From a bacterium (GTDB lineage Bacteria; Pseudomonadota; Gammaproteobacteria; GCA-002705445; GCA-002716945), in assembly GCA_029979505.1 (NCBI GenBank), contig JAPOHH010000002.1, positions 64,118-128,117 on the forward strand: a stretch of 64,000 bases of DNA, in the 5' to 3' direction. A model generated the notes under the pieces. It was not told where the DNA came from. It did no database searches and was given only the letters and a program-made list of their open reading frames with translations. Of the stretch, positions 56,617-60,179 are shown one piece after another. The position numbers and the translations under genes are program-made. How positions within the stretch are numbered: position 1 is the first letter of the stretch; each line of letters opens with the position of its first letter.

Positions 56617-57182
56617 TGGTTGATCATTCCCTTTTAAGAAATGGCAACAAAGTAATTGTTGATAATCAACCGTATTTGATAATGGATACCGATTTTGTTA
56701 ACCCTGGTAAGGGCCAAGCTTTTACTAAAATCAAAATTAAAAATCTTTTAAATAAAAAAACGATAGAAAAGACTGTAAAAATTGGTGAGGAATTAGACGA
56801 GGCAGATGTACTAAATACTTCAATGCAATTTCTTTATCAAGAGTCAGACAACCTATTTTTCATGAATCTTGAGACATATGAACAGTTAGAACTAAATGTC
56901 TCATCTATTGATTTTGATCCAAGATGGCTTAATGATGGAGATGAATGTGACGTAACTATTTGGAATGATGCAATCATTGATGTAGAACTTCCCAACTTTG
57001 TTGTATGTAAAGTTATATCAACAGAGAGTGTTGCAAAAGGTGATACAGTATCTTCTACACTAAAAGATGCGGAACTTGATAATGGTATTATGATCAAAGT
57101 TCCTGCTTTTATAAAACAAGATGAAGATATTAAAATTAATCCATCTACTGGTGAATATTCATCAAGAGCAAAGAATGAGTAA
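56616..57182 (+). CDS. efp: Elongation factor P
   Basis: DFVNPGKGQAFTKIKIKNLL (modifiable-Lys loop), WNDAIIDVELPNFVVCKV. Confidence 0.96.
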   Translation: MVDHSLLRNGNKVIVDNQPYLIMDTDFVNPGKGQAFTKIKIKNLLNKKTIEKTVKIGEELDEADVLNTSMQFLYQESDNLFFMNLETYEQLELNVSSIDFDPRWLNDGDECDVTIWNDAIIDVELPNFVVCKVISTESVAKGDTVSSTLKDAELDNGIMIKVPAFIKQDEDIKINPSTGEYSSRAKNE

Positions 57183-57555
57183 AGCGCAAGAACGAAGAAG
57201 AGCAGTAGAGCAGGCTATACAAGAGCATAAAGCTAAAAAGAATAAATATATCATTGCTGCAGTTTTTTGGTTTCTATCTAGCTTGTATTTATATTCAATT
57301 GATGAAGGCTTTTCAGATGTATATTCTCTAAAACCATTTGTATATTTCATAGTAGGCCCTGTTTTTGCATCAATTGTTTTTGGTAATATCATGTTTTTTC
57401 TTCAAAAGATTATTGAAAAAGGAGTTATTAACTTTTTAGGTTCTAGCGCACAACATTTAGTTCTTCCTGTTATATCATTTATATTCTTTTGTGCTCTTGT
57501 TGGAATGTTTATTGTTATATTTAAATTTGCTGAACTCTTACAGACTATTATTTAG
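57175..57555 (+). CDS. Small integral membrane protein, unknown function
   Basis: MSKAQERRRAVEQAIQEHKAKKNK then 3-4 predicted TM segments; ATG overlaps efp end. Confidence 0.75.
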   Translation: MSKAQERRRAVEQAIQEHKAKKNKYIIAAVFWFLSSLYLYSIDEGFSDVYSLKPFVYFIVGPVFASIVFGNIMFFLQKIIEKGVINFLGSSAQHLVLPVISFIFFCALVGMFIVIFKFAELLQTII

Positions 57556-57560
57556 AAACT

Positions 57561-57755
57561 GTGAGATATAGCATCAATCCACAACATGGTCCTTTCACGA
57601 CAGAAAATATTATTGATGGAACTGTCATATATACACTTATTATAGGTTTTATATTTCTTTATTTTGGTATAAAAACCAAAAAGTTTTGGGTAAAAAGCTG
57701 GGGAGTATTGACAATAATTAGCTGTTCCAGTTACTTTGCGTACCACTTATTTTAA
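57561..57755 (+). CDS. Small hypothetical membrane protein (GTG start)
   Basis: 64 aa, VIYTLIIGFIFLYFG and VLTIISCSSYFAYHLF hydrophobic segments; follows the upstream gene by 5 nt. Confidence 0.5.
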   Translation: MRYSINPQHGPFTTENIIDGTVIYTLIIGFIFLYFGIKTKKFWVKSWGVLTIISCSSYFAYHLF

Positions 57756-57800
57756 TCATACCTAAACTATATCAAATTTATTTCATGCAATTATCATATA

Positions 57801-58139
57801 ATGATGTATTATATTTTAATGCCTACATTAATGAGAGATATGATTTTACCAGTATTAATATCATCTTTGTATTGGCTGTCCTTTTATTATGATATTCTTC
57901 TAATGAATATGTTCGCATTTGTATTTGTTTCTATTGCTTATGTTTATTATTGCAAATGGGTTAATGCAAATTATGAATACATTTTTTCAAAAGAATCTGT
58001 AGATGAAAAACTTAATCATATGAGCAGTATTTCAAGAAAAATAATTACTGGAATTTGGGTATCTCATTTTGCCTTCTTTTTCTTTGGAGGCATTAGTTTA
58101 GGCGTTTCTGTTCCATTCATTATATATTTTAATTTATAA
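57801..58139 (+). CDS. Hypothetical multi-TM membrane protein
   Basis: 112 aa, 3 hydrophobic segments. Confidence 0.6.
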   Translation: MMYYILMPTLMRDMILPVLISSLYWLSFYYDILLMNMFAFVFVSIAYVYYCKWVNANYEYIFSKESVDEKLNHMSSISRKIITGIWVSHFAFFFFGGISLGVSVPFIIYFNL

Positions 58140-58346: not shown

Positions 58347-59495
58347 ATGGATGTATATAATTATGCTCAAGATGAGTTAAATAACTTTATCAACAAAAAC
58401 CTCTCTTCTTATTCCAAAGATAGGAATTATGATTATGGTCCTGATAAGAGAAATAATGTTTCAGTACTTTCAAAGTATGTTTCTCACCGAATACTTCTTG
58501 AATACGACATTATAAACACATCCTTATCTAAGTATCCTCTTTCTAAAATAGAGAAATATGTGCAAGAAGTATTTTGGAGAGTGTACTGGAAAGGCTGGCT
58601 TGAACATCGGCCTCAAGTTTGGGATGACTACTCCAATTATCAACCAAAAGAAATAAATGCTGATCAATTAAATAAAGCAATTCAGGGAAACACAGGCATT
58701 GATTGTTTTGATAGCTGGGTTTCTGAATTGATTAATAATAACTATCTTCACAATCATACACGTATGTGGTTTGCTAGCATTTGGATATTCACTCTTAAGT
58801 TACCTTGGCAATTAGGTGCAAATTTCTTTATGGAACATCTATTAGATGGGGACAGTGCCTCTAATACTCTCAGTTGGAGGTGGGTAGCAGGATTACAGAC
58901 AGTTGGAAAACATTATCTAGCAACATCATCAAATATTAGAAAATTTACTAATGGCAAGTATTCTCCTTATAGATTGAATGAATATGCGGATCCTATTAAA
59001 GAGGATATTACATATGATGCTGTTGATTTAAATATTATTAAATCTGAACGTACTAATTCTGCGTTAATTATATTTGATAATGATTTATCATTCAAAGATA
59101 GAGAAAATCTTTATGATAGCTATAATAATATTTATCTAATTCATATGACTAATCACAGTCGTAAAATTAAAGTTAGTGATAAAGTATTGCAATTCAAACA
59201 CTCATGTCTCTCTGATTTTAAAAAACACTTTAAACAAGCAGAGATAATAAACGATACGGACTTGAATCAAATTCTATGTAATTCTCATAAGATTGATGCA
59301 ATCTATCCATGTATAGGTGAAAATAACTCTTTCATGCAAAGATACAGCAATCAAATAGAAATAAACTATATTTATAGGGATGAGGATTTATTTTGCTGGA
59401 AATATTCAAAGAAAGGGTTCTTTAATTTTAAAAAAAATATACCTACTATTATAAATAAAATTATTAGAACGCAGGATTTATTTTCTCAAGAATAG
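58347..59495 (+). CDS. Photolyase/cryptochrome-like FAD-binding protein lacking the N-terminal antenna domain, with extra C-terminal domain
   Basis: VSVLSKYVSHRILLE, VFWRVYWKGWLEHRP, HNHTRMWFASIWIFTLKLPWQLGANFFMEHLLDGDSASNTLSWRWVAGLQTVGKHYLATSSNIRKFTNGKYSP. Confidence 0.85.
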   Translation: MDVYNYAQDELNNFINKNLSSYSKDRNYDYGPDKRNNVSVLSKYVSHRILLEYDIINTSLSKYPLSKIEKYVQEVFWRVYWKGWLEHRPQVWDDYSNYQPKEINADQLNKAIQGNTGIDCFDSWVSELINNNYLHNHTRMWFASIWIFTLKLPWQLGANFFMEHLLDGDSASNTLSWRWVAGLQTVGKHYLATSSNIRKFTNGKYSPYRLNEYADPIKEDITYDAVDLNIIKSERTNSALIIFDNDLSFKDRENLYDSYNNIYLIHMTNHSRKIKVSDKVLQFKHSCLSDFKKHFKQAEIINDTDLNQILCNSHKIDAIYPCIGENNSFMQRYSNQIEINYIYRDEDLFCWKYSKKGFFNFKKNIPTIINKIIRTQDLFSQE

Positions 59496-59544
59496 TTAAT
59501 AATTATAAAAAAAAATTTTTTATTACTTACATAAATATTACTAA

Positions 59545-60012
59545 TCAAAACCCTTTTTGTTTTGCATATGCATCATAGTTTTTCTTACCAATAGCTATTT
59601 TAAGACTCATTTTATAGCTAGCTTTGGAATCTTCACTACACTTCAAATCATTTCTGTCAAAACTTTGGTCAGTATATTTTCCCTTTAATGTATCTTTATC
59701 TATTTTTATAAAAACCCTATTCATTGAATTTGGGATTTTAGTCAAAATATTAATATTTGTATCAAGTTTATATTCTCGAAAAATATCATTCTCATCTTTA
59801 TGATAATCTATTACTAGATTTTTATATTCACGATCTATCCACCATGAAATTATCTGAACTTTCTTTTCGGAAAACTTTAATGAGAAGTCTACTGTTTGGT
59901 TAGATGAATTATAAAAAGTACATAATAATTCTTTTTCATCTAGACTAGAGTTATTTAAGTCCGCACAACCATCAAGGAAGACGACAGTAATCAGAATAGC
60001 AATAAATCTCAT
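59545..60012 (-). CDS. Putative lipoprotein, unknown function
   Basis: MRFIAILITVVFLDGCADLN lipobox-like signal. Confidence 0.6.
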   Translation of the reverse strand: MRFIAILITVVFLDGCADLNNSSLDEKELLCTFYNSSNQTVDFSLKFSEKKVQIISWWIDREYKNLVIDYHKDENDIFREYKLDTNINILTKIPNSMNRVFIKIDKDTLKGKYTDQSFDRNDLKCSEDSKASYKMSLKIAIGKKNYDAYAKQKGF

Positions 60013-60017
60013 CTCAT

Positions 60018-60179
60018 CTATTTTAAGATAATTGTTAAAATAATCCCAATAAACATTACAAATGATAATGATGCTAATACAGGTAGTTTCTTCATTATAC
60101 CTTTTCTCCAGAAATCAGGTTCCTTTCTCCAGGTATCTGTATCCTTCCAAAAATTTGAATCTTTCTTCTCTATTTGCAT
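60018..60179 (-). CDS. Small single-TM protein with aromatic repeats, not in ORF track
   Basis: Hand translation: MQIEKKDSNFWKDTDTWRKEPDFWRKGIMKKLPVLASLSFVMFIGIILTIILK*; 162 bp in frame. Confidence 0.55.
   Translation of the reverse strand: MQIEKKDSNFWKDTDTWRKEPDFWRKGIMKKLPVLASLSFVMFIGIILTIILK

Follow-up and report, generated by a model that had tools for sequence, protein, structure and literature searches.

A probable NewPHL-type short photolyase encoded in a gammaproteobacterial genome

Gene, neighborhood and domain order

The analyzed stretch of DNA, henceforth termed the window, comprises 64,000 nucleotides of a gammaproteobacterial contig and carries a short photolyase-like gene close to its end. 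The gene is part of a block conserved across the genus, which contains an HtpX-like M48 peptidase, an EF-P-like protein, small membrane proteins and the photolyase-like gene, and continues with a small lipoprotein-like gene, a 53-aa gene, an HI0933-like flavoprotein and a MazG-like gene. Three small membrane proteins of 144, 64 and 112 aa lie between the EF-P-like and photolyase-like genes (window 57121-58139); the 144- and 112-aa proteins keep their order across the genus (ca. 69-97% identity) and have no confident Pfam family. The features of the gene are as follows.

58347..59495, + strand: gene for a probable NewPHL-type short photolyase, 382 aa plus stop (ORF, PF03441, full-length orthologs, AlphaFold2, tree).
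58353..58991, + strand: N-terminal helical FAD/catalytic domain, ca. residues 3-215, all-helical in the AlphaFold2 model (secondary structure, invariant columns, Foldseek match to photolyases over ca. 215 columns); residues E74, W77, R78, N136, H137, R139, M140, W154, D167, D169, N173, W177, W179.
59049..59477, + strand: C-terminal α/β "Z-domain", ca. residues 235-377 (AlphaFold2, alignment, profile match); conserved end motif D347..CW..(K)KGFFNFKKNIP.

An earlier note on this DNA had described a photolyase/cryptochrome-like protein that starts with its FAD domain and lacks an N-terminal antenna domain; the coordinates and motifs it quoted agree with the ORF and its translation. The domain order was also described correctly, since FAD_binding_7 (PF03441, residues 72-191, E 3.6e-20) was the sole significant Pfam match of the protein and the closest NCBIfam models, those of photolyases and cryptochromes, were matched only from about position 210 on. 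Its C-terminal half gave no significant Pfam or NCBIfam match. In a phmmer comparison, residues 7-183 aligned with residues 230-409 of the class III photolyase 4u63, so that its start coincides with the end of the antenna domain in a normal photolyase. The open frame consists of 387 codons, five of them upstream of the ATG, and because it is closed at that point, an in-frame N-terminal extension is impossible. An upstream antenna domain hidden by a frameshift was likewise ruled out, as the only match to the antenna-domain family PF00875 in the genome lies within a canonical photolyase encoded elsewhere, on contig C8.

Predicted fold

The AlphaFold2 model of the full protein, computed from 52 sequences, had a mean pLDDT of 91.6 and a pTM of 0.90, with values below 50 in residues 377-382 only. 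Residues 3-200 consist entirely of helices. The Rossmann-like α/β domain that the earlier note had placed from about residue 235 onward is folded in this model, not disordered: an alternating β-α fold extends from residue 239 to ca. 376, with strands at 239-242, 261-265, 298-301, 315-319 and 338-342. When the whole model was searched with Foldseek, it matched photolyases and cryptochromes over ca. 215 columns that correspond to the FAD domain. The Z-domain folded alone reached a pLDDT of 80.5 and found no PDB match at E < 0.001. A structural search with this domain had been suggested as a check of its origin, and the outcome is divided: among the matches listed, the (6-4) photolyase PhrB (5kcm) had the highest query TM-score (0.49, E 0.027), in keeping with an antenna-like domain, but the best E-values belonged to phosphopantetheine adenylyltransferases (E 4.7e-3), and all exceeded 0.001. 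At the level of predicted structure, this result agrees with a Rossmann fold of the antenna type, short of proof. A sequence search of the PDB found no solved NewPHL structure.

Assignment to the NewPHL class

Short photolyases with this domain order were reportedly named NewPHL by Emmerich in 2020 (NAR) and SPL by Xu in 2021 (MBE). PMC13274461 describes NewPHLs as proteins of inverted topology that repair cyclobutane pyrimidine dimers (CPDs) on single-stranded DNA, and Phr7 has been described as an N-terminal FAD domain followed by a C-terminal Z-domain (mBio 2022, PMC9426592). Judged from its sequence, the window protein very probably is a NewPHL/SPL/Phr7 photolyase; as the class was already described in 2020-2022, it adds another member and not a new architecture. 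It shares with NewPHL/SPL proteins the leading FAD domain, the lack of an N-terminal α/β domain, an extra C-terminal domain, a length of ca. 380-410 aa, a Trp dyad, and an Asn near flavin N5 (N173), and it shows no difference that would speak against membership. Overall, it is 34-37% identical to alphaproteobacterial NewPHLs, the named relatives compared being those of Ruegeria, Niveispirillum, Peteryoungia, Asticcacaulis and Novosphingobium.

In a tree of 53 FAD domains, from which a few rows had been dropped, with an outgroup drawn from canonical rows of bacterial genomes only and the four literature reference NewPHLs not included, all FAD-first proteins fell on one side (100/100), and the Z-domain proteins formed one set with the window protein inside (99/99). 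A search of 299 genomes of the phylum was bimodal, with full-length matches at 337-588 bits and FAD-domain-only matches at no more than 149 bits. The Z-domain of the window group matched that of alphaproteobacterial NewPHLs in hhalign with a probability of 98.3% (E 1.3e-14). The window protein belongs to a marine subclade with a strongly diverged Z-domain. It also resembles Phr7 of Prochlorococcus in carrying an N-terminal FAD domain and a C-terminal Z-domain and in occurring in marine, streamlined genomes; Phr7 is cyanobacterial, unlike the window protein, and the likeness is drawn from its published description (PMC9426592).

Two other placements were rejected. A canonical class I CPD photolyase would have an N-terminal antenna domain and a Trp triad, both of which are missing here. 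The protein of this class encoded on C8 (L002, 468 aa) shares the catalytic residues and ca. 32% identity over residues 7-191, whereas its domain order is opposite and it has the full Trp triad and the antenna domain. An iron-sulfur (6-4) photolyase (FeS-BCP) or a Phr4/Phr6 type would need four conserved Cys for a 4Fe-4S site, which the protein does not have; C120 is the single invariant Cys column in alignment A1. For Phr4/Phr6, an Fe-S site has been reported (PMC9426592).

Origin of the Z-domain

To account for the reversed order, the earlier note had offered circular permutation or fusion to a different sensor domain. The fusion found no support. We lean toward the view, compatible with the NewPHL identity, that the Z-domain derives from the ancestral antenna α/β domain, which was relocated to the C-terminal end and has since decayed. 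The link is a chain of profile comparisons, whose E-values hold for single comparisons: beyond the match of the window group to the alphaproteobacterial Z-domain, the latter matched the C-terminal domain of FAD-first proteins from Deinococcus/Persicobacter (68.5%, E 4.6e-5) and also a profile that combines this domain with antenna domains (86.8%, E 4.3e-6), and the Deinococcus-type domain in turn matched canonical antenna domains over 136 columns (94.1%, E 1.2e-7). Reversed-sequence controls stayed at 0.1-0.2%. In Deinococcus L112, moreover, PF00875 was recognizable at residues 300-395, after the FAD domain (E 7.2e-4; 20.0 bits, the cut-off being 26.6), and the TM-score of PhrB points in the same direction. 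On the other side, the marine Z-domain alone gave no match to the antenna domain (hhalign probability 0.1-0.2%), the middle link of the chain is weak and comprises six sequences only, and the adenylyltransferases held the top Foldseek E-values, none of which passes 0.001. No PF00875 match was obtained for the C-terminal domain of the window protein in the Pfam search.

The idea of a permutation thus survives in part. The order is reversed and the Z-domain can be connected to antenna domains, but its own profile has no similarity to theirs; since the connection runs through intermediates only, a permutation is plausible in evolution and not shown by the protein itself, for which, on sequence comparison, "circular permutation" is too strong a term. 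That the profile chain suggests a worn-down antenna domain is relevant to the question of whether NewPHLs represent an ancestral or a derived state.

FAD-first proteins with other C-terminal domains offer a comparison. The inverted Phr6 or Phr4/Phr5 photolyases (PMC9426592) likewise place the FAD domain first and the α/β domain last, and the Deinococcus proteins L112, L185 and L186 share the FAD-first order and form a sister group in the tree. Both kinds keep a recognizable antenna domain and Cys motifs after the FAD domain, whereas the window protein has neither. The Deinococcus genes lie on plasmids (L112:2845-4215, L185:1845-3218, L186:1857-3275) and encode a Cys-rich stretch after the FAD domain, followed by an antenna-like C-terminal domain; they are Phr6-like inverted photolyases outside cyanobacteria. 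On a plasmid of Deinococcus sp. QL22 (L187:1836-3127), the inverted arrangement is split into two overlapping ORFs, the first for the FAD domain and the second for an antenna-like "hypothetical protein" of 173 aa, which resembles the phr4/phr5 split of marine Synechococcus. Two Persicobacter plasmids (L188 and L189, unannotated records) encode FAD-first proteins whose C-terminal domain is short and degenerate, ends in FFAFWKK or FFAYWKK, and looks intermediate between antenna domain and Z-domain.

Catalytic residues and proposed mechanism

Residues E74, W77, R78, N136, R139, M140, D167, D169, N173, W177 and W179 were invariant in 99 of 99 homologs. We take the equivalents of the FAD- and lesion-site residues in Escherichia coli photolyase to include E274, W277, N341, M345, D372, N378, W382 and W384. 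The position of Arg342 of the E. coli enzyme, a DNA-contact and active-site residue of this CPD photolyase, is occupied by His137 here and throughout the family. None of the homologs departs from Trp at the two inner positions, W177 and W154. The distal Trp position, W296 in the canonical photolyase of the same genome, holds K101, and Trp was not among the common residues of the homologs there. This W177/W154 dyad in place of a triad agrees with the "mere Trp dyad" that has been described in the NewPHL of Dinoroseobacter shibae (PMC8948257).

In the mechanism that we propose, the N-terminal helical domain would bind FAD, and blue or near-UV light would excite the reduced flavin. An electron would then pass from the excited flavin to a CPD flipped into the active site, and the dimer would split and return the electron. 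CPD photolyases are established to work in this way, with light driving the transfer of an electron from reduced FAD to the CPD. Photoreduction of the flavin would proceed via the dyad of W177 and W154 instead of the classical triad. The Z-domain may pack on the FAD domain and close the flavin site, standing in for the C-terminal helices that a normal photolyase has and this protein lacks, a role that Emmerich et al. are said to have assigned to it in 2020; it probably lacks an antenna pigment. By analogy with characterized members, the preferred substrate would be CPDs in single-stranded DNA.

The same residues bear on whether the protein might instead be a signaling cryptochrome that kept its flavin photochemistry, lost repair, and uses the Z-domain as a sensor or output domain. 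In favor of this, the DNA-contact residue R342 of the E. coli enzyme is replaced by H137, and the evidence for repair is computational only. We nevertheless consider this reading improbable: the lesion-site residues E74, W77, N136, M140 and W179 are invariant in all 99 homologs, the neighbors of the gene in the genus are housekeeping or unknown genes and not signaling genes, and published family members repair CPDs (PMC9426592, PMC13274461).

Distribution and integrity of the gene

The probable NewPHL is not confined to a single genome. Full-length orthologs were present in eight of nine sampled genomes of the genus, the window's own included (82-53% identity in the others), as well as in other genera of the family, and at least 80 contigs from SAR86, SAR116, SAR11 and other marine bacteria carried orthologs at 48-82% identity. 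Alphaproteobacterial plasmids also carry full-length relatives, at 33-36% identity over 91% of the length. The earlier note had called for homologs with the same domain order, and these were found, at the same length, across SAR86, SAR11, SAR116 and the plasmids. Among viral contigs, no phage-borne copy was found, the phage records being FAD-domain matches that cover half of the query. On the plasmids of Ruegeria (L108:3944-6546) and Peteryoungia (L110:1635-4176), the NewPHL gene adjoins an AarF/ABC1/UbiB kinase-family gene; in Asticcacaulis (L111), such a gene lies ca. 1.7 kb away.

An artifact, be it a canonical photolyase cut short, a frameshift or a chimeric assembly, might be suspected from the fragmented assembly (15 contigs, 90% complete) and from a partial second copy of the region at the contig end, but its probability is negligible. 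Single-cell and metagenome genomes from several classes, independent of one another, show the same length and domain order; no antenna domain lies upstream, the two-domain model is confident, and the conservation of the whole gene in dozens of independent genomes rules out chance, frameshift and chimera.

The second copy lies past the window end (L004:9151-9933, equal to contig C14:129150-129932) and is inverted and diverged. It consists of the 53-aa gene, a 155-aa lipoprotein-like gene and the NewPHL C-terminus, with 83%, 54% and 58% identity to the window, where the first copy of the duplicated block is located at ca. 59343-60179. The closest relative (G001) has no such copy at the equivalent position, which indicates either a duplication specific to this strain or a chimera at the end of the contig.

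Photolyase complement and strand specificity

Besides the NewPHL gene, the genome of the window encodes two further photolyases on C8, one class-I-like (PF00875 and PF03441) and one of the PhrB-like (6-4) type (PF04244). A different complement was observed in genus g2 of the same family, where a PF00875 protein was not found in any of seven genomes, the PF04244 type was present in all seven, and the NewPHL in five (G009, G010, G013, G014 and G015, the last partial at a contig end). G014, which is 99% complete in three contigs, has only the NewPHL and the PhrB-type protein. In these five genomes, the sole candidate for a CPD photolyase seems to be the NewPHL. If NewPHLs indeed act on single-stranded DNA only, genus g2 would lack ordinary CPD photorepair. 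We tentatively raise the possibility, which we hold to be less than even, that the NewPHL is the sole CPD photolyase of this genus and either repairs double-stranded DNA, unlike characterized members, or leaves light repair limited to single-stranded regions. Genomes whose only CPD photolyase is a NewPHL offer a direct way of testing the single-strand specificity that has been reported.

Bacteria of the sunlit ocean face UV damage every day, and NewPHLs are abundant in the streamlined ones among them (SAR11, SAR86, SAR116). Our literature search found no paper on NewPHLs in these three groups, an absence that is weak evidence. The class being known, what is added here is its breadth across marine bacteria and a testable question on strand specificity. 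G013 retains, ca. 3 kb from its NewPHL gene, 141 codons left over from a canonical FAD domain.
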